Source: Hesseltinella vesiculosa
Lineage: Eukaryota > Mucoromycota > Mucoromycetes > Mucorales > Cunninghamellaceae
Assembly (NCBI GenBank): GCA_002104935.1
Contig: MCGT01000003.1
Location: forward strand, 930,001 to 994,000
Reading direction: 5' to 3'
DNA length: 64,000 bases
Numbering within the stretch: position 1 is the stretch's first letter; each line of letters starts with the position of its first letter. Below, one piece after another: positions 1-60,227 of this stretch. A program made the translations under genes and the position numbers. Below the pieces are notes generated by a model, which worked only from the letters and a program-made list of their open reading frames with translations, was not told where the DNA came from and did no database searches.

Positions 1-244
1 GTAGTTTTAATAAAAACAAAAAAAATAATAAATCTTGACCCATTCCACGTTGACAGTTGCTACGATGCCTCGGCTAAGTTCAAAAAAAAAAAACAAAGGT
101 CCAAAACAAGCAGGTGGTTGCTCACCAAACAAGCCCTCTTTCATGCACTTGCATGACCCAAAAACGATTGTGGTCAGCATCCTTTCTTTTTGTTTCTTTT
201 CTTTCGCTTTATAGAATCCTTTTTTTTCTTCTTTTGTTTATACC

Positions 245-8649: not shown

Positions 8650-8882
8650 CGCAGTCATCCAATGACAACAATTGGCTATGCACGAAAATCAAAATAAACG
8701 AGGAGGTTCAGAAAATTCACGGATACGAATGTTACACTCAGCCTGGGATTGTCCAATAAAATCATTTTCTGTTTTGGCAACAAAAAAGGGGAAAGTGAAA
8801 AACCAACTTGCTTTTTTTAACACCTTTTCTTTCTCTTCGCTATTTCTTAACATGACATCACACAACGTTACGCGCCTGTATA

Positions 8883-9219
8883 ATGCCTCCATTGAACGCT
8901 TTATTGCAAGTAACTGATCAAGTGCCCATCGCTCGCTGTAGTGATTGCAAATGTAAACGACCTCTAGTGCATTTTGAAGCACGCAGATGCTGGTACACAC
9001 TTGCATCGCTGCCGAAACAGTGCCACCCGCCAACGATCTCCCCCTTCTGAAGCAATGATTAACTGGGATGAGCTAGATGAATTTAATGGCCAGTTCCATC
9101 GCAACCCTGCTCTGCCTATCAATGTGCATCTTCCTGACAACCTTGTCGACTTGCCAGTTGACGACATTGTGCGTCATTTCATTGTGCATCTTTATGACAC
9201 GTCTGGCTTCATGTTCTAA
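8883..9219 (+). pseudogene. Small Cys-rich (zinc-ribbon-like) reading frame, broken
   Basis: From the ATG at 8883 the plus strand reads a short protein with ARCSDCKCKRPLVHFEARRC, a Cys cluster like the small zinc-binding N-termini of expanded mucoromycotan protein families. It stops at 9050. The reading continues one frame over as AMINWDELDEFNGQFHRN and an acidic segment ending YDTSGFMF at 9219. Either a single-base change or a missed short intron separates the halves. The WDELDEF segment after a Cys motif recalls a family I know from Glomeromycotina and Mucorales, but the match is from memory and weak. It is treated as a broken or mis-modelled gene. Confidence 0.35.
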
Positions 9220-9232
9220 TTGAAGCTTAACC

Positions 9233-9862
9233 ATGGCCCTTCAAGACGCTCAGCTATCGACTTTTACGCTTCCTGTACAAGCAAAAGCGAGTATTGGTAT
9301 TGAAAAAAAAGAACTCCGAAAACAGAAACCGAAAATCACCGGGAAAGGAAAGGTTCGAAGTGAGACGCGATTTGTTGCAGAAAATGGTGACGCGCTTACA
9401 GGATCGATGCCTCTGCACGAAAGTGTATGTCTCCCCAAGTTCGAAATCAGACGAGCCATTTTTGGATCGCGACAAAAACAAGGACAACAGCAAGTTTGTG
9501 AATTCCATCACTGGCTGTAATGGTGACATGAAAGGTAACAAACAGTTCCATGAATTTGTGTTCTTTATTATTCACCATTTGTAATTTAATTTAATTTAAT
9601 AGCATTGAGATCGTTACTGGCCAAAAAATTCAAACCAATTCGGTTGGTAGTACCGGTAATTGATTACGCTGGTTTCAGCACGGAACCCAACAATGTCCGA
9701 CAATTTTTCGAGTAAGAAAAAAAAAACCAAGGAAAAAGATAAGATACTCACGTTCCTAACCACAGGCAACATACTCAAGTCAAAGAGCTCGTTGTGGACC
9801 ATGGGATAACATTTGAAATTTTTGAACAAAATGACCTTTGCGAAAATGAAGGTATTTTGTCA
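9233..9862 (+). pseudogene. Unrecognised coding remnant following the Cys-rich frame
   Basis: Reading fragments that can be spliced lie at about 9294-9535 (RRDLLQKMVTRLQDRC), 9602-9710 (RLVVPVIDYAGFSTEPNNV) and 9769-9850 (VKELVVDHGITFEIFEQND). Donor and acceptor pairs at 9535/9601 and 9711/9768 keep one frame, which suggests a genuine gene of which this is the middle. No start or end is clear. After 9850 the frame cannot be continued with confidence. It may be one gene with the 8883 frame. Family unknown. Confidence 0.3.
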
Positions 9863-31257: not shown

Positions 31258-31632
31258 CTACTGTACACAGCACTTGTGAGTGATTGAGTCGGTGCGAAAA
31301 TTTAGGCACGCGAATGCATGAATGATGCTGATGCTGAATAAACCAGGTCGATGAGTCAAGGTGCCCGAACCCAATGCGCAGTTTCGGTTGATGATGGTGT
31401 CAATGAACCTTTTCATCTTCACAGGCTTTTGTACGATTGTTCGTACCTTGGTGAGATCGTCGATGGACTTGGGCAGTTCAAAGCTATCAATTTCTACCAA
31501 TCGGTAGACACCAGTCGCTTGTAGGTCCATCTTCAGTGCTACACAATGATGGCCGTCCATCCAAAGGCCGCAAACCAGCGGAGATTCCAATCCCAAAGGG
31601 ATAAGTCGATGGAGCATTACAGTCAATATCAT
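31258..31632 (-). pseudogene. C-terminal-type fragment of an expanded mucoromycotan protein family
   Basis: A 124-codon open frame on the minus strand includes PLVCGLWMDGHHCVALKMDL, VYRLVEIDSFELPKSIDDL and KPVKMKRFIDTI. It resembles the beta-rich C-terminal part of an expanded, uncharacterised family common in Mucoromycota, recalled from memory, not searched. It has an ATG but no N-terminal domain and lies just downstream of the DDE transposase relic, so it is probably a leftover fragment. No intron is evident. Confidence 0.35.
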
Positions 31633-32670: not shown

Positions 32671-33674
32671 CGGTAACAATTTTAACATCGGTGTTTAAAA
32701 ACCAAAATTGATGTCAGATCGTATGAACAATGTACCTGCGCGCAGAAAAAAAACATGGCGATGGTATACAAAGGTACAGAAGGTTTCGAAAAAAAAATTG
32801 AAGGCGCAAAATATACTGTACTCTCCCAGAAAAAATCTGAATGGAAAAATGATATACAAAAAAAAAACTGTTCTAGTTCACTTGGATTAAACTTGTGAAT
32901 GTTGTTTTAAGGACAGAGTGCGCTCATCTCGAAAAAAAAAGGTCTCCAGGACACGCGTGAAAACCGCCAAAGTCTGAAAAAGCAATTGCGGGGACGGAAA
33001 CCAAGTCATCGTTCCCGGGTTCGAAAAAAAACCCATATTTAGACATAGCAAGAAAAAGGTCCAGTTTAAGCAAATACCTGCCTTCAATGGGAATTTAAAT
33101 AATTGTGAGCGATATATTTTTCTTTATATGGGTGATGGATTTTTTGAAAATATACTTTCCTAAAAAGTATAATTGCTACTTTTTTAGAAAGTATTTTTTC
33201 AAAAAATCCATCACCCATATAAAGAAAAATATATCGCTCACAATTATTTTCATTCCCTTTGAAGGCAAGTATTTGCTTAAACATTACACTTTTTTTGCCA
33301 TGTCTAAATATGGGTTTTTTTTCGAACCCGGCGAACGATGACTTGGTTTCCGTCCCCGCAATTGCTTTTTCAGACTTTGACGGTTTTCACGCGTGTCCTG
33401 GAGACCTTTTTTTTTCGAGATGAGCGCACTCTGTCCTTAAAACAACATTCACAAGTTTAATCCAAGTGAACTAGAACAGTTTTTTTTTTGTATATCATTT
33501 TTCCATTCAGATTTTTTCTGGGAGAGTACAGTATATTTTGCGCCTTCAATTTTTTTTTCGAAACCTTCTGTACCTTTGTATACCATCGCCATGTTTTTTT
33601 CTGCGCGCGGGTAGTTCATAGATCTGACATCTTTTTTTGGGGGGTTTTAAACACCAATGTTAAAATTGTCACCG
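32671..33674. repeat. 1.0-kb near-perfect inverted repeat (palindrome)
   Basis: The arms 32671 to about 33166 and about 33180 to 33674 are reverse complements with only scattered mismatches and small homopolymer length differences. Matching pairs include GTGAGCGATATA at 33105 with its complement ending at 33241, and GCGCGCAG at about 32740 with its complement near 33604. The centre is at about 33173 with a loop of roughly 13 nt. Transcripts would fold into a hairpin of about 500 bp. The arms end abruptly at CGGTAAC / GTCACCG. No clear target-site duplication is seen. Confidence 0.93.
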
Positions 33675-45992: not shown

Positions 45993-47323
45993 GTCTCTTT
46001 GCGTCATCCTGCATCGCTAAAGGATGGCGGGTGGTGGTGGGCCTTCCTCTCTCCTCTTGGAGTCAGTTGATTGGTGTGCCAGTCCTTTTCATCGGCACAC
46101 TTTTTTTATTATTCACAATAAAAGATGTTTACTTGCATCTCGTTCTTTACTGAATTTTATGACCGAAAAAATAAGCACATTTAACTACCCAACGCTTTAG
46201 AATGAATGGATCAATGTCAAAATTTTCACGGATGCAGAAAAATCATAAATGAAGGTCATCATTCTATTCTGGTTCAACGTGGCCGACGCTGTAGGCACTG
46301 GGCTACTGCCAGCCTTTGCCAACCTTGCCCGCCCACCTGCCCGATACTGATTCCCTCATATCACCTTCAATATTGCTCCTTTTTTCATGCGCTTTGGTTC
46401 TATGGATAGCTGTGAAGGTTAGCGTTCTAACGGTGCCATTGGAAGAGCGGAAAAAATGATATTGGGAGTTTTCCGGGCCAAGAGAAGAGACACTCTCCGG
46501 AAAAAAAGAAAAAGAAAAAAAAAGAGAAAATTGTTAGAGGTTGGGCTTGGACGCAGCTTACTGCAGGCAAGTTTGGGCAGGAGAAAACTTGGTCTAGCTC
46601 TGGAGGAAGTGATCGAGGTGGGTTGTGATTTTTAACACTGGTCAATTCTCACCAAGGGCGATCAGCCTGAGCAGTTTGGAGGTGGAGGTCCCTTTTTTTT
46701 TGGCTGAAAAAAGAAAACCATGTCGGACATTGTAATTTTTTTTTTTTTTTTTCGTTTTGCCTTTTTTTTTTGGCTGGGGAAAAGGAGGTCCCAAAAACTA
46801 CTTGATTCCAAATTGGCTGGGCAACCTTTATAGATTGACTTGATTTTTTCACTATCCATATATTGCATTAAAACCTGAACCCATGCAAAATTTAATCTTG
46901 ATTCATTCATTCAAAACTGCAATAGAGTAATATCTTTTTTTATAAAAAGCTAAGGGTCTCTCTGGCGACCTGGCCAAAAAATCCTCCATTTTCATCAAAA
47001 ATTTAAGCGTCCAATCTTTTGCATGTAACTGATACTTGATGAGGTGGGATGGAAGTCACAATAAAAAGCTTTGTATGGGACGTGATAAGGCATGGACAAT
47101 TTTGGCCCTGTTGAACAATCAATTTCGTGAGTGATGTTTATGGTGAATTTGGTCAATGATTGGCTGGCCTATTTTTTATTTGGTTGATGAGAAGTTGTAG
47201 GGGAGACGGAGATTGCAATCTAAAAGATGATGTACGGGATGAGAGGACCGATGATGTGAGACGTGCCAATAAATGAGTGATACCTTTTTTTTTTTTTTTG
47301 GTTTTTGACAGCTCTCAGTTCTT
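45993..47323. other. Intergenic, no gene recognised
   Basis: AT-rich, with poly-T at 46738-46754, 46761-46770 and 47285-47300. Short frames on both strands have no recognisable motif. Confidence 0.35.
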
Positions 47324-47797
47324 TGCTGTCTTTGGGTTAAAAAATATAAAGCCTTGTGTGGGAGAATTTGACGGGTTGTGGGTCGAGGTGTCATGAGACT
47401 GGATCATACTCTCGATTTCTTGGAGGCAAATGGTTTGCTTCACTTTCTTCGCCATAGTCATCTTGAATTCCTATGTAGTAGATTAAAGTTTGTCCATTTT
47501 CTCAAATGGCAGGGCCCTGTTCCTGATCCTTACCTTAAACTTGAATAGCAGATCTAACACATGTTCAAAAAGTTGAAGTGGTTCAGGGTTCTTTGGCAAG
47601 AATACAGTTCCGAGGGACTTTGCATCAAAATATCCGAGACTGGTCTTTTTCATGAGATAGAGATAACCCACATGCCCTAGGAACATGAATAAAGAAAAAA
47701 AATGCCGGTTATTTTTTTAAAAAAAAAACTGCGGCTAACTTTTCGTTCTTACCTATGAAATCCATGGCAACAAGTTGATCAATATCATGTCTGTAGT
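47324..47797 (-). pseudogene. Decayed 3' copy of the 55-kb family gene
   Basis: This stretch matches the last exons of the gene at 54965-57366 with roughly nine in ten bases the same. Both include the peptide YLYLMKKTSLGYF, then LPKNPE, and the intron/exon border at FKFKV. Here Asp replaces Val once and several synonymous or neutral changes occur. The homology stops at 47797 in the middle of what would be the preceding exon (after CTGTAGT). It lacks the first 80 percent of the gene and the usual stop is altered, so it is a truncated pseudogene. Confidence 0.85.
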
Positions 47798-47829
47798 GGC
47801 CAGCGGTGCCAAACAGGCTTCAGGGATTC

Positions 47830-49330
47830 TAAAAAATAAAGAAAGAAAAATGGTAAGGTTATGTTTTTCCAAGGGCATTCATTGATCATTTTATCTTACC
47901 AGGCACGGGAGCTTCTGTTGCTGCTGTAGGACATTATAGGTTCCCACGCCCAGGATCTTATCGGTTCCCAAGCCATGGTGGTGGTAGTGGTGGTGTCGGC
48001 GGACACTGGACCATATTTTTACATAAAAAAAAAGAAAATGGTGAGGTTATGTTTTTCCAAGGGCAATCGTTTTCAGTTCATCTTACCAGGCCAAGCCTCA
48101 GCGTTGATGGTTGCCGGCCAAATACAGCATACTACGGCCAGTCGGCCGGAAGGCCAGGAGCAGAAGGCACATGCACAGGTTTGGGTCGGTGGCGCAGTGG
48201 CTTAATATCTCGTTTTGCCTAATTGGTTTTTAAAAAAAAAATCAATGAGTGACATAGCTGATAAAAAGCGCAATTTCACATTTCTTACAAGAACTTCACC
48301 ACTGGCCACACGCCAAGGAGAGGGGGCCTCATCGTCGGAAGGAGGTGAAGCGGGTGTGGCAGCGGGGACACGAGCAGGCTGGACGGCAGTGGCAGATGTG
48401 GAAGCTGGCCAAACGGCGGCGGCAGGCCAAGAGTCGGTGGCAGGTGTGGTGGCAGGCTTGGAAGCGGCAGGGACACCAGCAGGCTTTGCGGCGGTGGCAG
48501 ATGTGGAAGCAGGCCAAACAGCGGCGGCGAGGCGGCGGCAAACCAAGAGGCAGTGGCAGGCTCGGCGGCGGCGGTGACAGGAGTGGCAGCAGGTAACCGT
48601 CCTTCTGCTACCTCTTTGCTTTGAACTCTTGCTCTGCTACGTCATTGCCAAATAAAAATTTCTGATTTCCAATCTCAAAAAAAAATGAGTGGCAGCGGGC
48701 TTGGTGGCGGTAGCAGCAGCGGTGGCAGGCCCTTGGGTAGCCCGTTTGTTGAATATGGGTGGTGCGAACGTGCGCATTGCAGGGTTGCGGTCGGCATCGT
48801 AGCGAGCGGTAGCCATGCGAGCACTAGTCAAACGAAGGCGAAGCAAACGGGGCGCGTCAGCCTTGCGCTGGGCTGTGGCACGGTGGGCGGCAGCTGACTG
48901 CTGGGCGGCGGCCCACTTGGCGATGTCTTCCTGGGCGGGCGTTTATGCGGTGACAAGCTGGGCTTCGGTTAGTGAGCCGGAGGTAGGTGCGGCGGTGGAC
49001 ATTATGGTGGCACATACGGGTGTGGCAGACCCGGCAGCAGCAGCTTCAACAAGCCAAGCTTCACAAGGCACGATTGGCTGGCCGTCGGAAACAGGTACAG
49101 TAGGTCATACGGCGGACGAATCAGCTGGCTTGGCCGCGGCAGGGGTCACAGACTTGGCCTATTTGGTTTCAGAAAAAATAATCATTGAAGTACTACGGCT
49201 AAGTGAGTTTTCATATTTCTTACGAGACCACCACTTCTGACCGCACGCTGGAGGGCGTGGTAGTGGTGGTAGTGGTAATGTCGATGGCGGTGGTGGGAGC
49301 TTTAACGACCGAGTGGAGGTCGGTTCCCTA
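47830..49330 (-). pseudogene. Ala/Pro/Thr-rich repetitive reading frame, interrupted
   Basis: The minus strand is open over long stretches with strongly biased composition (AVWPASTSATAAKPAGVPAA, then PATTPATDSWPAAAVWPAST; 48202-48546) and a more ordinary segment RLLRLRLTSARMATARYDAD (about 48740-48830). Stops split it at about 48635, 48945 and 49100. Short GTAAG/AG-flanked stretches at 47880 and 48080 share a 60-bp intron-like repeat (GGTTATGTTTTTCCAAGGGC). GC content is far above the surroundings. I do not recognise a family; it may be a decayed structural, wall or gag-like protein. Confidence 0.45.
48367..48545. repeat. Two copies of a roughly 102-bp GC-rich repeat
   Basis: The segment GGACACGAGCAGGCTGGACG with the following GGCAGATGTGGAAGCTGGCC recurs about 102 bp later as GGACACCAGCAGGCTTTGCG and GGCAGATGTGGAAGCAGGCC. 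It lies inside the Ala/Pro-rich frame. Confidence 0.7.
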
Positions 49331-49636
49331 CACGAAATACATTATGACAAGATCAGATTAGCTGCTTTTTTTTTTCGTTGCCAAGACCCAAACAAATAGG
49401 AAAAGACTTACCGGGATGACAGTGCTACCAATGGGTTCCTTGTGGGAACGGAATCCCTATGCACAAAGAAGAATAATATAAAAAAATCATGAACAAATCA
49501 GTACCAGAGCAGCTTTAATTCGAACAAACTTACCTCATCCCCAAACGTTTAACAAGGGGCGCCCTATGTACAAAAAAAAAAAATATTAGAATGGATATGA
49601 GTGCTTGTTTTCGAAGCGAAGAGATTTTTTGGTATA

Positions 49637-50146
49637 TTACAACGTGTTCTTGGAGGCAATGGGCTTGGTGACGGCGTTGCAGATCATGACCAGACCGTAT
49701 TCGTTATTTTCTTTTGACCATTCGTACAAGTTAACGCCAAAGAAATCAGCCTGGCTGTCCTCGTCTCCGCACACAAAGTAGTCCTTGATGTCGTCACGGA
49801 TAAACTGATCGTCGTTGCTGGCATAGACGACCGGAATAGCCCGACCACCGTTCTTAGCCAGGAAGGTCTTCATGTCACGAATGATGGAGCGGACAAAGGG
49901 TGAGGCGGGAGTGGCCGTCTTGTCATTGGTCACCTCGTTCCCTGCAACAAAAGCGAGCAGGCGGGGATACTTTGCAAACGCAGCAACGGTGGCCTTGTAA
50001 GAATTGTACATTTCAACATCATAAAGAGGGCTCTTGCGGTTGATGGACTTGTTGGGGGTGGGTACATCCAATAAGAGATACAAACCATTGTCAGCAAACA
50101 CTATCATGCATGCATCGTGGCTAGAGCTTGAGTTCGAACGTAATAC
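49637..50146 (-). pseudogene. GH72 beta-1,3-glucanosyltransferase (GAS/GEL) fragment
   Basis: The minus strand encodes about 150 residues of a GH72 catalytic domain: HDACMIVFADNGLYLLLDV, SPLYDVEMYNSYKATVAAF, FVAGNEVTNDKTATPASPF (with the catalytic acid/base Glu in GNEVTND), IPVVYASNDD, YFVCGDEDSQADFFGVNLYE. Neither the N-terminal strands before VLRSN nor anything after YEW matches the family; at about 49720 the sequence becomes unrelated and soon stops. GAS enzymes elongate cell-wall beta-1,3-glucan at the plasma membrane. Both ends are missing, including the second catalytic Glu, so this is a dead internal fragment. Confidence 0.8.
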
Positions 50147-50314
50147 GCCAGAAATGGCGAATGAAGACCGCAGGTAAGATAAAAGCAGCAAGAAGGAACA
50201 GCATCGCAGTAATGAGCAAGTAAAAGCACGGAATCAGTAATCAAATTGGGATGTAGCGCGGCAGTAATGTATGGAACCCAAAAAAAAAGAGAAAAAAAAA
50301 CATGAACAAAGAAG

Positions 50315-50370
50315 TTTCACTCTTTTTTAAATCTTTCTGTAAGCCAGGTGATTGACAGCCATATCCAAGA
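50315..50370 (-). pseudogene. Short remnant of a middle exon of the 55-kb family gene
   Basis: A segment reading, on the minus strand, LLDMAVNHLAYRKI corresponds to LDMAVHDLAYKKV at the exon end near 56510-56550 of the family gene, with the same flanking splice donor. Only about 50 bp are alignable. It lies in the expected order between the 3' fragment (47.3 kb) and the RNR1 fragment (50.9 kb). Confidence 0.6.
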
Positions 50371-50864
50371 GACTTCGCCATACACATGGCACCAGTGACC
50401 GGACCAAATGGCGGCAATAGTGGTGCTATGAGAGGCAGTGTGCCGAGACGTAGTAAGGGCCAGGAAAACTGAAGAATATTTGGCAGTGACGTAGCTGCGC
50501 AAGTGAGCAAGACAAAGGGATGGATTTGTGACAAGAACGCTGGCAATTTTAAAAGGAGATAAAATCATGCTTTTGATATATTGCACATGGATTCACTGAT
50601 AACAAAGGGCTGAGCTGCGCCCGCTTCAGAGGCAAATTTAATCAATGACTGGAAAAAATGACAAAATGGTATATGGCGACGGCTGAAACTGTCAATCTCT
50701 GCAACGCTGCGCTGATAAAATAAAAGGCTAAAAACAATGAAAAAAACAAAAAAACAAAAAACGATCGGGGGTGGTGTAGTAGGACGAACACGCTGCTGAT
50801 CACAGTCTTCCTTTCGCTAAGAGCAAGAAAACCTATGTTTGGACTGGCCATCACTGGTCAATGA
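50371..50864. other. Degenerate sequence inside the duplicated block
   Basis: It corresponds in position to the 5' half of the family gene but I find no convincing coding match. Nothing else is recognised. Confidence 0.3.
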
Positions 50865-51213
50865 AAAAGCGTTCATATTTTATATCATCTTCAAACGAAG
50901 GCCGAATAAAAGAGAAGAGAGGGCGTATGGAAATGCATTGGTCAGAGTAAAGATCAGGGGGATAAAAAAATGAGACTATGAATAAGAGAGAGAGGCAGAG
51001 AGGTGGATTTAACCGCTGTAGCTGATGCAGGCATCTTTGTTGTCCAAAGAGCAGACCATGTCGGCTTCGTTTTGTTGTTGCTGGAGTATTGATCGATGAT
51101 AAACGGTGGCTACACAGGCGGACAGGTCGCGGGTGCTGTTCCGGAGGCCCTGTTTCATGGGAGTCAACTTGCCAAGGTCAAGCGCATTGGTAAATGCGCC
51201 ATAATCGGCAGCC
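50865..51213 (-). pseudogene. RNR1 3'-end fragment
   Basis: The first about 200 bp match 57540-57755, the RNR1 3' flank and last codons, with very few differences. They include the stop codon context and the codons for the DACISCSG tail, with one change in the tail (CTG to CTA at the Ser/Ser boundary). Beyond about 51085 similarity weakens and is interrupted by deletions, then ends near 51213 at the codons corresponding to the GAADYG region. It cannot encode a functional reductase. Confidence 0.85.
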
Positions 51214-52487: not shown

Positions 52488-54680
52488 GTGTCTTGCTCAC
52501 TCTCTATGAATAATCAAAATGGAAAATCCCCTGCCCTGCGATCCACTGTGAATAATGATCACCTCCGACGTGTGCTTGACAATAACTCAGATATGCACTA
52601 TGCGAGTCAAATGGTCCTGGCTCAAAGTATTGATCAACGACCTGGGAATACGACCAAATCAAACGAAGCTAAATAAAAGGAATGGGTTGTAAGTATTATT
52701 TCTGCATTCTTCCACTTCATTGTAGTTAACACTGAATTTTCTTATTAGCATTGGTGTCGTGACAAAGGCTTTACAGATGGTGAACTTGCCAGCGATCAGA
52801 AGCTTAATTATTTTTTGTCTGACTTTGTCATGAATCGTGGTCGCAAGTTACGAAGGAACAATGATGGAACCCCCATCCCTCTTAGCAAGGAATCAGTTCT
52901 TGCCTATGTAATGGCCGTATCTGATATGTACAATCAGCAACATGCACTTGGCACCAACACAAACGGACCAGCATGAGGACCGCTTGTTAGGACTTTCCTT
53001 GAAAATCTAGACAAAGAGCGCGTCCGATCCAAACGCGCTAACTATGAAGACCGCGGCAAAAACACTCTAAATGACGGATATACGGTGAAAGAGTTAAGCA
53101 TGGTCAGCACATACTACATGACTGAAAAAAACAACCTTGTTGGCTGTCGCGATAGACTTAGTTTTTTATTGAGTCATGCGATGCTATGTCGTAGCCAGAA
53201 TGCTCTTGGTCTTCAGTTTGCAGATTTATTTGCTACGGTTGTCGAGGATCAAGGCATGACCGAATGCATGGCTTTGGTAGCTACGATGAATTTTGGAAAG
53301 ACCAACCAACATAGAAAAATCGAAGATGGATCATCATTGCGGCATCGAGATCCTAATCTGTGCTCAGTGGGTGCTCTCGCATTTACCTTTTTTCAAGATT
53401 TCGCCACAAAAATGAATCATTTCCGAATTTTACACGACGAGAAAACTGGTACGACATCTCTCTCTTTCCAGGAAGCAATGAAAAGACGCCAATCTCGCTC
53501 GGAACACAGTTCAATTCATATGTGGAAGCGTTCAAAAAAGTTGGCATACGCACATCGAAAGTTACCCACGCCAACCGGAAGAGTGCGCTAAATATCATTG
53601 CACAACAAGACGTGTCTGGTGATCAACAATGAAGAGTTGGACGATAGGGCACCGATCGTATGGTTGGCTGCTATGTATCAAGTCTGCCGATGGAAGCGAT
53701 GAAGGGCTTGGCTGGTTTTGGCAACTTCCGTGGCAATTATTTTGTTGCAACGTCTTATTTTTCCAAAAATTGAATCATAGCTGGCCCGAACTTCCTAGAT
53801 CTTAAAACAATTTTATGTTGGTTTACTAATAATGAAATAATGATAGGACTCCGTTGCTATGAAGAGGGGCCATCCTGATCTTTGATACCGATTTGTACAA
53901 GAAGTTTGAAGGAGAGCTGTTTCCTCCTTTGGCCGCAAATAACGACGCTCTTTCCATGGACCAACGAATTCAATTTGCTATTCCAGAATTGGTGTCTCAA
54001 GTAATGGAGATGAAGGAGGCGCATAACGAAGCTCAAGACGCCAGCAAGAAGAGTGTTGATTTTTTTGCCATGGGGCACAAATGGTTTGCCACTAGCCACG
54101 ATCCTCAGCAGTTAGCAGCCATTCCAACGTCTTCAAGGACCGTTCCATCGCCTATGGCATCCGCTGCAACCACGACGACCCCTGTGCCATCCACAACGCA
54201 GTAAACGATGAGCAGAGATCTTACAACGGTAGTACTCCTTACCAAGAAGCTTGACCAGATGACAACCTCCACTCAACCTATTCCTGCAATGCTATCATCA
54301 CAAGCACCTCTTATGCATCCACGACAACCTCCTCAAGGACAGAAGTATCAATCACGCGCCCCCTACGCAACTAATAAAATGGGTAATTGTTATAACTGTC
54401 AAGGAAGGGGACACAATGCATCTGTATGGAGAGAGTATACTGTACGTCTGGTATCTCTGGAGGTCCGTCAGTCAGGTCTTTAGAACGAACGCACGGAACG
54501 GCATGGCGCAGAGATCAGAAAGAATCGCGCTTTTTCAGCAGACGCCTAGAAATTTACAGGGCAATTTGAAGACAAAGCTGTGAGAGAAGCGATCTCTGAG
54601 GACGAAGCCGCGCAATTGCTAGAACAACAACGAGCAAGTAACGGCATTTCTTTAGATAAATTTAGAGCCAGTATAAAATA
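52488..54680 (+). mobile_element. Decayed Crypton-type element (tyrosine recombinase + GCR1_C)
   Basis: In order on the plus strand: an N-terminal segment ending NTTKSNEAK then a stop and KEW; after an intron, WCRDKGFTDGELASDQ (SAM/core-binding like); then LSFLLSHAMLCRSQNALGL and MNFGKTNQHRKIE with HRDPNLCSVGALAF. Two frames on come ISLGTQFNSYVEAFKK and SKVTHANRKSALNI (the HxxR of tyrosine recombinases), RVGRWGTDRMVGCY, and KKFEGELFPPLAANNDA. Last is a GCR1_C DNA-binding domain (GGPSVRSLERTHGTAWR, QKESRFFSRR). This domain order is typical of fungal Cryptons, whose recombinase region resembles the Ndc10 fold. At least two stops (near 52672 and 52975) and several frameshifts break it. It is read as a dead element; ends are approximate. 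Confidence 0.78.
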
Positions 54681-54964: not shown

Positions 54965-55710
54965 ATCATTTTCTTGCTGCCTTGGGGTTGAAGAAAATAA
55001 AGCCTTGTGTAGGAGAATTTGAGGGGTTGCGGGTCGGGGTGTCATGAGTCTGGATCATACTCTCGATTTCTTGGAGGCAAATGGTTTGCTTCACTTTCTT
55101 TGCCATAGCCACCTTGAATTCCTATGTAGTAGATTAAAGTTTGTCCATTTTCTCAAATGGCAGGGCGCTGTTCCTGATCCTTACCTTGAACTTGAATAGC
55201 AGATCCAAAACAGGTTCAAAAAGTTGAAGTGATTCAGGGTTCTTTGGCAAAAATACAGTTCCAAGCGACTTTGCAACAAAATATCCGAGACTGGTCTTTT
55301 TCATCAGATAGAGATAACCCACATGCCCTTTAAAAAAAACCGCTTTTGTTTTAAAAACGCTTCATGCCCTTTTCTTTCTTACCAATAAAATCCATGGCAA
55401 CAAGCTGATCAATGTCATGGCTGTAGTTGTTGTAAAGCTGGGTCAGTACAGATGCGTTTGATCTGAGGTTTTTCCCTTGTTGCTGGATTTTCACATCATT
55501 GCTGACGCCTTGCCGTTTCCATTCATTTGTGCACAGCTCAACTTGCTTTCTGCCATGGTCGTGATAAACCAGTATGAGATCAATTCGTCTTCCATAAGCA
55601 GATGCCAAATCCATAGATTCGAAGAGCGCTTTGTTCAATTGCACCATTTGCCTCGTTGCCAAGCTTGTGTGTTCTCCACTAAATAAAAATTGCTCAGCCT
55701 TTACAATTAT

Positions 55711-55744
<34 letters not shown>

Positions 55745-57366
55745 AGAGAGGACTTACTCGACAAGCACAACATCTGTAAAATCAAATAGGTGATCCAGAA
55801 TGGTGGAAAAACGCTTGTAAAGTGTGAGTTCTGATTCTTCATTCAAGTTTGACCAGCGACCGAAGCCCTCGACACTAAAATATGAAAAAAGGTTAATCTT
55901 CCTTCAGAAAAGTAGAAAAATCGGTCTTGCATTTTTTGGACAATGCTGAGCATCAGATACTCTTGTGATTTGCGCATCTTGGCCTTGGAAAGTTCCGCCT
56001 TCTTGCAGTCGATAGCTGCTGTCAAATCATCAATATCATCACCCACACTCATAACATCTCGGAATAGTTTTCGTGTTGCCAGAGATAGGCCAGTGCAAAG
56101 GTCCAAATTCATGGATGCTGAGTTGCTCATGACATCCTTCCATTCGACATCGGTCATGAAATCTTGATAGACTTTTACCATATCTTTATCCATAAGGTTG
56201 ATAATTCTTGAGATGGAAAGCCTGCGTAGCGATAGTAGCAGGAAAAAAAAAAGGTAAGTCAAGCTCTGACTTTTGGTTTTTCTCACTTGCTTCATCAGGC
56301 TTTCATTCGTTGGGGTATCCAGCTTCTCCAAGTATGTTGTCCCCAGTTTCAGGAGGGCATCCACTACGCTGTCGCTCTCGCGACGGGCAAGGATTGCATT
56401 CAGCTGACGGATATCATTTTCGTCGATCAGTGACCCCCTTGCCTTCTTTTCAGTGAAAAAAAAAAAAAAAAAAGTGAGTGACAATACAAAGGAACGGCTT
56501 TTCACTCTGTTTGTACTTTTTTGTAGGCTAGGTCATGGACAGCCATATCCAAATCAGTATCAGGGTCGGTGTCACCAAAGGGGTCGTCAAGCTGGTGGGA
56601 TTCTTGCTCTCTTTGGTGATCTTGCAGCACGGCGTCTTCAAACAATGGACAGTTTCCGTCATTGCAAGGGCTGTCAGGCCGAGTACACTCTTGACAGTCA
56701 AGGTCATTTTCTTGAGATTTCGAGGAAGAAGGGTAAGGTTGTCCAAGCTTAGAGGGTGCCAGAGATTCTTGCTCGTCTTGGCCATCTTGATCTTGGTTTT
56801 TTTCGGAGCAATCAATAATGCTAGAAATCGTTTTCTGTACAGCCAGTTTGACCAATGGCTTCCCAGTGATAACAGCTCCAACGCCAATTTCTTCGACCAT
56901 TTCCTTCAAACTGAGCTGGAAAGAAGCAATGAAAAACGCGTAAAAAAAAGAGCTGCTATATCAATATAGTTTACCATGTTATTAGCCTTGGACAGAATTG
57001 ATGACCATTCCTTTGTGTATTTGATACAAAGGCTATGAAACGTATACAAGTTGAGTCATTGATGCATGTGCATAATTTACATCTCACCTATCGTGTAATA
57101 ATGGCTTTTGTCTCATTCGCATTGCAGTTGCAAATCTTGCGTTCCATTTTCTCAACAATTCAGGAGCATCCCCCTTGAATCCCATACTCCAACCTGGAAA
57201 ACTTTCCATGTGTTCCTTCACAAACTCCATGAGCCTGGGCTTCTTTGCATTCATGACAAACTCTTCCAGTTCTACAAAAGGTGGAGGCAAATTAATACAT
57301 TCAAGTGGAGACATTATAAATTTACAAACCTTTCATTCCATCATAACGGCTTCTTTTTCCTGTCAT
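54965..57366 (-). CDS. Mucoromycotan expanded-family protein, possible PD-(D/E)xK nuclease fold
   Basis: Ten or so exons join in frame from the ATG at 57364-57366 (MTGKRSRYDGMKG) to the TGA at 54965, giving roughly 600-650 residues. A helical N-terminal part (EFVKEHMESFPGWSMGF) is followed by an acidic Gln/Asp/Cys-rich linker, then helices (SSNSASMNLDLCTGLSLATR), then GRRIDLILVYHD and VELCTNEWKRQGVSNDV. The D-x(n)-E-x-K arrangement there, followed by a Gln/Lys/Asn helix (IQQQGKNLRSNASVL), fits the core of a PD-(D/E)xK nuclease-like fold. The C-terminus has TSLGYFVAKSLGTVFLPKNP. The gene looks intact, and a truncated copy lies at 47.3 kb. No function is known to me; nuclease activity is a hypothesis only. 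Confidence 0.65.
55709..55752. repeat. Poly-A run followed by GA repeats
   Basis: About 30 consecutive A, then GAGAGAGAG, inside an intron of the family gene; in the gene's sense strand this is a long poly-T acceptor tract. It is the longest homopolymer in the window. Confidence 0.9.
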
Positions 57367-57680
57367 TGTGGTCAAGGTGTATCAATGAGCAACACTAAGA
57401 AAGTGGACAAAAAAAAAAAAACTGGGAAAAACGGCAACCATGGTTGAATTGAAGTGGCGCAGAACAGCAGGGCAGTGTGCACCTTCTTTCAACTAGAGCG
57501 GATTTTCGGGCAGCAGCACTGTTTCAATGAAAAAAAAAAACGTTCATATTTTATATCATCATCAAACGAAGGTTGAATAAAAGAGAAGAGAGGGTGTATG
57601 GAAATGCATTGGTCAGAGTAGAGATCAGGGGGATAAAAAAAATGAGACTATGAAGAAGAGAGAGAGGCAGAGAGGTGGAT

Positions 57681-60227
57681 TTAACCGCTGCAGCTGATGC
57701 AGGCATCTTTGTTGTCCAAAGAGCAGACCATGTCGGCTTCGTTTTGTTGTTGCTTGTCACGAAGGGACAGTTGATCGACGGTGAACTTGATGGCATCGAC
57801 GGCAGGACGGGTACGCAGATAGTACATACCCGTCTTCAGACCCTTCTTCCAGCCGTAAAAGTGCATGGAGGTCAGCTTGCCAAAGTTAGGCACGCCAATG
57901 AACACGTTGAGACTTTGGGATTGATCGATAAAGGCACCACGGTCGGCAGCCATATCGATGAGGGTGCGTTGGGAGATTTCCCACACGGTCTTGTAGATGG
58001 CTTTGAGGTTATCGGGGATGTTGGGGATGTGCTGGACAGAGCCGTTGTCGGACATGATGCGGTTCTTGATTTCATCATTCCAGATGCCAAGCTCCACCAG
58101 GTCCTTGAGCAGCCAGGGGTTGGCGACTTGGAATTCACCGGCAAGGACCCGGCGGGTGTAAAGATTGGATGTGTAGGGCTCGAAGCATTCGTTGAAGCCG
58201 AGCATTTGTGAGGTAGAGGCGGTAGGCATGGGGGCGACCAGGAGCGAGTTGCGCACGCCGTGCTTGCTGACTTGTTCCTTGAGGGCGGCCCAGTCCCAGA
58301 GGTCGGTAGGAGTGACATCCCACATGTCGTACTGGAAGATACCTTTGGACACAGGGCTTCCTTCGTAGGTTTCGTAAGGACCGAGCTCACGGGCCAGCTC
58401 CATTGAGGTTTCCATGGCGGCGTGGTAAATAGTTTCAAAGATTTGACGGTTCAACAGCTTGGCTTCGTCTGATTCAAAGGGATAGCGCATCAGCATAAAG
58501 GCATCGGCCAGACCTTGGACACCGAGACCAATGGGGCGGTGACGCTTGTTGGAGCGTTCGGCCTCGATGACAGGGTAGTAGTTGATGTCGATGATCTTGT
58601 TCAGGTTGCGGGTAATGACCTTGGTGACGGCATGCAGCTTCTTAAAGTCAAAAGAGGTGCGGTTGACGACATAGGAGGGAAGAGCGATACTGGCCAGGTT
58701 GCACACGGCGATTTCATCAGGGCTGGAGTACTCGACAATTTCGGTACACAGGTTACTGCACTTGATGGTGCCGAGGTTTTGTTGGTTGGATTTGCGGTTG
58801 CAGGCATCTTTATACAGCATAAAGGGGTTGCCGGTTTCGGTTTGGGCTTCCATGATGGCGTACCACAGCTTTTGGGCCTTGATCGTTTGGCGAGCACGGC
58901 CTTCTTGTTCGTAGCGGGCATACAGCTCTTCGAATTCATCGCCCCATACTTCGTGCAGACCAGGGGCTTCGTTGGGACAGAACAGCGACCACTCGCCGTT
59001 GGCTTCCACACGCTTCATGAAGAGATCAGGCACCCACAGCGCATAGAACAGATCACGGGCACGGATTTCGTCCTTGCCGACGTTCTTGCGAAGGTCCAAA
59101 AAGGTGAAGACATCGGCGTGCCAAGGTTCCAGGTACATGGCAAAAGCACCGGGACGCTTGTTGCCACCTTGATCGACGTAGCGGGCAGTGTTGTTGAAGA
59201 CTCGGAGCATGGGCAGGAGACCGTTGGAGTAGCCGTTGGTGCCAGCAATGTAAGAGCCAGTGGCACGGATGTTGTGGATGTTGAGACCAATGCCGCCAGC
59301 GGTCTTGGAGATTTGGGCACAAGACTTGAGGGTTTCGTAGATGCCTTCGATCGAGTCTTCCTTCATGGTCAAGAGGAAGCACGAGGACATTTGAGGACGA
59401 GGCGTGCCGGCGTTGAAGAGCGTAGGGCTGGCATGGGTGAAGAAGCGCTCGGACATCAATTGGTAGGTTTCCAAAGCAGCATCGATGTCGTCGCCGTGAA
59501 TCCCGACGGCCACACGCATGATCAAGTGTTGAGGACGCTCAGCCACTTTCCCATTGATCTTGAGCAAATAAGACCGTTCCAGAGTTTTGAAGCCAAAGTA
59601 GTTGTAGCCAAAATCGCGGTCATAGATGATGGCTGAATTGAGACGATCGGCGTTCTTGATGACAACTTGGTAAGTGGTGTCCGAGATCATGGGCGAGTGT
59701 TTGCCCGTCTTGGGGTTGATATAGGTATACAAGTCTTCGACGACTTGCGAGAACACCTTTTTGGTTTCTTTGTGCAGGTTGGAGATAGCAATACGGGCAG
59801 CCAAGATAGCATAGTCAGGATGGGTGGTGGTCATGTAAGCAGCCGTTTCAGCAGCAAGATTGTCCAATTCCACAGTGGTCACACCTTGATACACCCCAGA
59901 GATCACCTACAATGAATGGGCAATGCAAATATTTCAAAATGAGGGACCATCCATTTTACAATGAAGGAGATGATTTACCTTTTGAGTGATGGACACGGGA
60001 TCAACATAGTTAGGATCCAAGCCGTAGCAGAGCTTGTTAATTCTGGCAGTGATCTACAGAAACAGATGAGGCCATTATGCAACCAGCTTGGACAGGTGCG
60101 ACAAGTACTTACCTTGTCAAAAGCAACAGCTTCTTGACGACCATCTAGAGACATTGAAGAAGAAAGTGAGTCCATGTGCCTTTCACCGATTTCTCCATTT
60201 ACCTCGTTTATAGACAAACATAGGCAT
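57681..60227 (-). CDS. RNR1: Ribonucleoside-diphosphate reductase large subunit
   Basis: Four exons: start at 60227 (MPMFVYKR), [30 protein letters not shown], then one long exon of 741 codons to the TAA at 57681. About 785 residues, class I R1 size. It has the N-terminal ATP cone, [20 protein letters not shown] (active-site Cys and substrate loop), [26 protein letters not shown] (catalytic Cys), the loop [30 protein letters not shown] and the C-terminal CxxC (DACISCSG) that recycles the enzyme with thioredoxin. It makes deoxynucleotides in the cytosol with an R2 subunit. Its 3' end is duplicated at 50.9 kb. No defect is seen. Confidence 0.97.

Follow-up and report, generated by a model that had tools for sequence, protein, structure and literature searches.

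The gene at 54966..57366 on the minus strand of the analysed Hesseltinella vesiculosa (Mucorales, Cunninghamellaceae) DNA, a stretch of 64,000 nucleotides referred to below as the window, would on our preferred reading encode an intracellular metal-dependent nuclease whose family is under birth-and-death evolution, perhaps in genome conflict. We give this combined reading a probability of about one half. The nuclease part taken singly is fairly probable, and the role in conflict, the weakest step, is tentative. At least 31 further loci of the family were collected from the same genome, about half of them apparently decayed, and relatives occur across the Mucorales.

Gene structure and conserved residues

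The gene is complete and open from ATG to TGA, with ten exons, 1836 nt including the stop codon and 611 aa, and its spliced reading contains no internal stop. It had previously been placed at 54965..57366 by a reading of the sequence only, which was exact at one end and off by one base at the other. Exons 1 to 5 (minus strand) are located at 57366-57330, 57271-57088, 57032-56975, 56915-56517 and 56445-56291, and exons 6 to 10 at 56221-55931, 55874-55758, 55678-55383, 55327-55185 and 55121-54966. Introns 5 (56222..56290, minus strand, donor GCAAGT) and 6 (55875..55930, minus strand, donor GCAAGA) are of the GC-AG kind, and are supported because paralogs carry introns at identical position and phase, mostly with GT donors. 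At the intron 5 site, 13 of the 17 paralogs that span it have an intron in the same place and phase, and the donors printed are GT; at the intron 6 site the figure is 13 of 23, the donors being mostly GT, with GC in L052.

Residues 1-93 (56975..57366, minus strand) form a basic N-terminal region of pI 9.8 with the stretch K-[KR]-P-[KR]...W...L..W..R[FY], for which there was no Pfam match at E <= 0.1. This region was matched again at L035, L036, L037 and L048 and, judging by position, also inside the stretches of L047 and L060. Exon 4 (56517..56915, minus strand; residues about 94-226) encodes the Cys-containing acidic linker that had been described, with a pI of 4.2, 29 D/E and 5 Cys, and the paralogs hardly match there.

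The core reads RIDLILVYHD...CTNEWKRQ, then QQQGKNLRSN, and the D...E-x-K arrangement is present as previously described. D447 of GR[RK]ID (55579..55581, minus strand) is D in 27/27 covering loci, window included. E466-x-K468 of NEWK occupies 55516..55524 (minus strand; E466 codon 55524-55522, K468 codon 55518-55516), with E in 23/26 and K in 26/27 covering loci. In the helix before the core, E390 (55829..55831, minus strand; SELT.YRRFA in the family) is E in 23 of 25 covering loci. The helix proposed to follow the ExK, earlier called Gln-rich, is Q/K/N-rich; its QQ-x-x-KN stretch (residues 479-484, 55468..55485, minus strand) is helical in both structure models, and Q480 (26/27), K483 (27/28) and N484 (27/28) are conserved across covering loci. 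Close to the C-terminus lies a tail motif, FFNPKAARK (54969..54995, minus strand), with the family form roughly F-[FST]-[STN]-P-[KR]-x-x-R. It was flagged in 15/31 fetched loci, 21 of the 31 reading that far, and its columns include F603 (19/21 covering loci) and P606 (16/18).

Column conservation across the loci was 1.00 for D447, 0.88 for E466 and 0.96 for K468 against a median of 0.38 over the 283 columns scored, in a locus alignment fitted to the family profile, a procedure that favours conserved columns. The 54 other D/E/K columns, a comparison set that leaves out E390, E416 and K483, have a median of 0.35, the best being K560 at 0.93. G513 is also invariant (29/29) and several further columns exceed 0.9, so the triad belongs among the best columns and does not stand alone. 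In a MAFFT alignment (A1) of 16 cores picked for stop-free reading all three residues are kept in 16/16, and among loci without an apparent lesion that cover all three sites (window included) they are kept together in 13/14. The exceptions at E or K are L041 and L056, which are both broken, and L062, for which the part read is open.

Conservation of D, E and K was one of the points on which the sequence-only reading had staked the family; they are conserved both among these paralogs and among the database relatives, with one D replaced by N. This supports a putative catalytic triad kept by selection. Locus L062 (C56:505.6-506.9 kb) has no apparent lesion in the part read, and its E, K and KN are replaced, which makes it a candidate catalytically dead copy.

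Searches of Pfam, NCBIfam and PDB sequences gave no significant match to the window protein (best rows E 0.05 to 0.07), the NCBIfam search being made with the window protein only. PADLOC, searched with three core sequences, gave no significant nuclease match. The Pfam rows listed for the full protein were DUF3091 and RuvX, both below the cut-off. AlphaFold2 models were built from 19 short sequences, namely the database relatives and window exon 8, and are of low confidence (mean pLDDT 65.4 and 64.8, pTM 0.55 and 0.40 for models 1 and 2). In order, their elements are a helix, a strand, another helix, strands close to D and ExK, then a long helix and further strands; D and ExK sit on neighbouring strands, or next to such strands, ahead of the long helix. 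This predicted order is compatible with a PD-(D/E)xK fold and goes no further than that.

Fold searches with these low-confidence models gave no match at E <= 0.001. Among the best 50 PDB rows listed for model 1, six were bunyavirus cap-snatching endonucleases or L proteins holding one, and among the best 50 viral rows listed five were a bunyavirus L fragment or named nucleases, all insignificant; we take these to be PD-(D/E)xK proteins. The better-scoring rows were unrelated, model 2 showed no bunyavirus or nuclease rows, and in the VIA lists known nuclease folds were absent or insignificant. The top Foldseek and VIA rows for model 1 were cysteine proteases, sex-pheromone-precursor proteins, pyrophosphatases and the like.

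It may be that the core folds differently or belongs to a nucleic-acid-binding pseudo-enzyme in which the D/E/K triad serves another purpose. This is rather unlikely in our estimation. The missing significant sequence or fold match to a nuclease, the non-nuclease top rows for model 1 and the lesion-free paralog L062 without E and K all speak for such a protein. However, the models are too weak to judge, known members of the PD-(D/E)xK superfamily reappear in the insignificant part of the fold lists (6/50 PDB and 5/50 viral rows listed), and E...D...ExK...Q/K is the usual signature of that superfamily.

Copies, decay and selection in the genome

A search of the genome with the window protein gave 48 matching stretches, and after four added paralog queries at least 31 loci beyond the window gene were collected, the gene readings of which come from spliced profile alignment. 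An apparent frameshift or in-frame stop is present in 15/31 fetched loci, although some of these apparent lesions may be misread introns. The other 16/31 have no apparent lesion in the part read, several of them being only fragments (L038, L047 and L064 among them). The proposal of an expanded, fast-decaying family was borne out by the number of loci and by the share of them with an apparent lesion.

Most copies are about 30-50% identical to the window protein, and many carry introns in common with it. Spanning paralogs repeat the intron position and phase 278/2 in 13/17, 375/2 in 13/23 and 414/2 in 19/24 cases and, in the C-terminal part, 513/1 in 14/26 and 560/0 in 14/25; for the N-terminal positions the comparison covers no more than 1 to 6 loci. 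Some copies lack single positions, and L034, L040, L043, L047 and L051 lack two or more. A family of retrogenes or retrotransposed copies is disfavoured by these introns common to copies at the same positions and phases. Enrichment of the family at contig ends was not seen (27 loci, KS p 0.37).

Purifying selection was found in four of six tested pairs, with dN/dS of 0.11 for L058/L060 (95% 0.04-0.28), 0.16 for L038 and the window gene (0.06-0.34), 0.17 for L050/L061 (0.11-0.23) and 0.18 for L045/L064 (0.08-0.33). Three of these four low values reflect mostly the time before decay, since L061 and L045 have apparent lesions and L038 and L064 are fragments. Pair L056/L059, in which both copies are broken, gave 0.67 (0.44-1.06), L049/L052 gave 0.55 with an uninformative interval of 0.09-2.28, and a seventh pair, L050/L053, had no usable dS. 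Selection of this kind, together with subfamilies common to several Mucorales genera (see below), would also be expected of a housekeeping nuclease of DNA repair or recombination that had been duplicated by chance. We think this decidedly unlikely, as about half of the copies are broken, divergence is high and Pfam and NCBIfam gave no significant match to a known repair nuclease; repair enzymes are not typically so broken or divergent.

One duplication lies within the window itself. The segment 54966-57754, which takes in the nuclease gene and the end of the ORF next to it, has been duplicated to 47315-51082; we take this ORF to be ribonucleotide-reductase-like, with 57535-57754 as its 3' end. 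The C-terminal fragment of the duplicate (residues 497-609) is at 47315..47801 (minus strand), where 47315-47797 has 86% nt identity to 54966-55427 and dN/dS is 0.16 over 112 codons, and the far end of the segment is at 50864..51082 (no strand assigned), with 96% identity over 220 nt to 57535-57754. A search of the window also located a 13-residue remnant of the duplicate's middle, LDMAVNHLAYRKI, at 50330..50368 (minus strand). A further relic is present at C23:893 kb (L055). Of the three places where fragments of the same or similar families had been suspected, that at 47.3 kb is thus real, and that at 50.3 kb belongs to the decayed copy of the same segment but amounts to the 13-residue remnant and not more. 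The third, at 31.3 kb, belongs to another family, with no tblastn or spliced-profile match there in searches of the window and an hhalign probability of 8.7% for its ORF against the nuclease family.

This last ORF (window 31261-31632, minus strand) represents a separate family, likewise uncharacterised, for which the genome gave 9 matches including the ORF itself, five of them weak and four in open frames of >300 codons. Window 32671-33674 is a 1-kb palindrome with a 93% match to its own reverse complement, and has a relative in locus L042. A fragment of a GH72 glucanosyltransferase gene (window 49637-50191, minus strand, E 3e-50) lies inside the duplicated segment.

Transposon relics and repeats around the loci

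Copies of the family do sit among transposon relics. A decayed NDC10_II (Crypton-type) coding relic at window 52947-53710 (plus strand) lies beside the nuclease gene; a zinc-knuckle-like stretch, recognised by eye, comes after it near 54.4 kb, and a second NDC10_II relic is inside L036. A repeat element at window 8691-9299 (plus strand) has dozens of matches in the genome, mostly of 79-96% identity, and in many of the copies at other places its first 85 bases recur as an inverted repeat. This element occurs within about 1 kb of L040, L046 and L057, or 3 of about 33 places (a rough count, with 40 of 91 candidates scored) against 0.25 expected (Poisson tail 0.002). It has many copies elsewhere in the genome as well, and its presence near the three loci may reflect shared repeat-rich surroundings.

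Neighbouring genes were surveyed as ORFs of at least 70 codons in the fetched stretches. One recurrent ORF family adjoins 5/32 loci and overlaps the inverted-repeat element in three; its members are at L036 5761-6780 (plus strand), L040 4252-4695, L041 3675-4151, L046 4085-4864 and L057 2812-3312 (the last four on the minus strand). Four of these ORFs were scanned and had no Pfam match at E <= 0.1, and presumably the family resembles the start of a MULE-type transposase. Other clusters of neighbouring ORFs involved fewer loci, or were repeats, near-duplicates or overlapping frames.

Foldback repeats occur at L035 284-941 and 4920-5580, on both sides of the nuclease paralog. As a carrier of L035 the foldback repeat was rejected, being a genome-wide repeat with 871 first-look candidates, of which 40 were scored. 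At the ends of the L049/L052 and L058/L060 duplications neither terminal repeats nor target-site duplications were seen by eye, and some of these ends lie inside the gene; the other copies are too divergent to bound. L052 3864-4445 (minus strand) is a 98% duplicate of the L049 nuclease segment and forms one open frame with the stretch VGVDPGHSVLYTA, which we take to be like RuvC motif I. Pfam gave nothing at E <= 0.1 for the joined pieces of L052.

Transposon linkage was among the options that had been raised, and the gene could be, or recently have been, the nuclease of an undescribed DNA transposon with the loci as its copies. High copy number and decay would fit this, as would the NDC10_II relics beside the window gene and inside L036, the inverted-repeat element near three loci and the ORF family partly overlapping it beside five. 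It is nevertheless unlikely, as introns are common to copies at the same positions and phases and most copies are too divergent from the window protein to represent a recent burst. In addition, the two recent duplications show no terminal repeats by eye and end in part inside the gene, the element near the three loci has many copies elsewhere, and the foldback repeat is genome-wide.

Relatives, interpretation and comparison with known systems

In a search of protein databases with a profile of the core, 18 of 510 candidate proteins reached E <= 0.01. Seven of them have a named source, namely Hesseltinella, Phycomyces nitens, Thamnidium elegans, Fennellomyces sp., Mucor bainieri, Rhizopus azygosporus and Parasitella parasitica, and the six species other than Hesseltinella all belong to the Mucorales. 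The suggested spread of the family in Mucoromycota thus extends to these six species. Their proteins are hypothetical (E 1.4e-11 or better), are short or partial models, and none has a precomputed Pfam domain. Searches for relatives with the full-length protein and with an 8-row profile found nothing, perhaps because common words crowded the relatives out. Pattern scans of viral contigs and prokaryote genomes, which were limited in sensitivity, gave no relatives, nor did a scan of plasmids that was limited in reach.

In an alignment (A2) of the 18 relatives and the window exon, E and K are present in 19/19 rows and D in 17/18 rows with a residue there, with N in P0013 and a gap in P0015. One relative from H. 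vesiculosa itself, P0003, matches locus L058 on C3 with 98% identity over 100 residues. Those of Phycomyces nitens and Thamnidium elegans (P0004 and P0005) share 90% identity over 77 residues, which is unusually close for this family. In so fast-evolving a family such closeness could mean transfer, which would favour the transposon explanation, or it could reflect slow evolution.

A tree of 40 rows, from which P0003, P0015, P0018, Parasitella and the loci with too little core were left out, contains starred groups in which L044, L045 and L056 fall together with Fennellomyces, Phycomyces and Thamnidium; Rhizopus is grouped likewise with L048, L054, L058 and L060. As these groups are common to several genera, several subfamilies seem to predate the genera. 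In the tree 15/37 inner branches are open and the placement of the window gene itself is unsure; the relatives from other species fall in other groups than its own, or in weak ones.

From these observations we infer a protein of the PD-(D/E)xK kind that would act inside the cell, probably in the nucleus or cytosol. Its basic N-terminal region, acidic linker and a helical region precede the core. There, metal and water would be bound by D447, E466 and K468, and E390 and the QQxxKN helix would complete the site; the short C-terminal tail motif may dock a partner. The family would be old in the Mucorales and live by duplication and loss, and its likeliest job would be cutting the nucleic acid of selfish or foreign elements, in conflict or defence. 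The birth-and-death dynamics, with no leader seen and no terminal repeats seen at the two duplications read at their ends, make an intracellular nuclease engaged in genomic conflict likelier than an effector or the gene of a transposon, although a rapidly duplicating family fits several roles besides defence.

If the nuclease reading is true, at least 32 loci in this Mucorales genome belong to a family of nucleases without a significant match in the domain libraries searched, some copies showing signs of purifying selection and others of decay. Gene families of this size and dynamics tend to sit in genetic conflicts such as immunity, incompatibility and transposon control. To our knowledge, little has been described of defence in these fungi beyond RNA interference. 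The conserved triad and the tail motif make the family directly testable.

A more specific form of the defence role would be a eukaryotic restriction-like immune system, in which intracellular PD-(D/E)xK nucleases with differing specificities would attack nucleic acid that is selfish or comes from outside but leave that of the host intact; we regard this as very improbable. Early-diverging fungi, Hesseltinella among them, are described as rich in N6-methyladenine in PMC8298701 and PMC9279130. That this modification could act as a self signal for the family is a guess from their co-occurrence in these fungi.

An effector had been offered as another option, and the gene could encode an effector with an REase domain, of the Crinkler/CR type, that is secreted or delivered to a host. 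CR effectors carry such domains and occur in Rhizophagus irregularis, according to PMC6131194 and PMC5289972. This explanation is nonetheless the most improbable of all, as no hydrophobic N-terminus was seen in the window protein and in Pfam the full protein matched neither a header nor an NTPase or kinase domain at E <= 1, and nothing at all significantly. The absence of a hydrophobic leader also led us to reject a secreted effector as such. The lifestyle of Hesseltinella vesiculosa is saprotrophic, which again speaks against an effector.

No description of the family was found in those parts of the open-licence literature that were accessible, and it probably belongs to a known superfamily. 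It differs from the bunyavirus cap-snatching endonucleases (PDB 7ewy, 5ize) in that the fold match is insignificant, no sequence similarity was found and the biology is unrelated. With the CR/Crinkler effectors of Rhizophagus and oomycetes, as described in the papers cited above, it has in common that these are expanded eukaryotic families with a predicted restriction-like nuclease, but it differs from them in having no secretion signal seen and no header, NTPase or kinase domain detected. A further comparison is with the PD-(D/E)xK superfamily. The order of residues is alike, namely E in a helix, D, E-x-K and then a Q/K/N-rich helix, and the low-confidence models likewise place strands around D and ExK, followed by a helix. 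Unlike that superfamily, however, this family gave no significant family-level match in Pfam, NCBIfam or PDB sequences, and it carries its own QQxKNxRxN motif.
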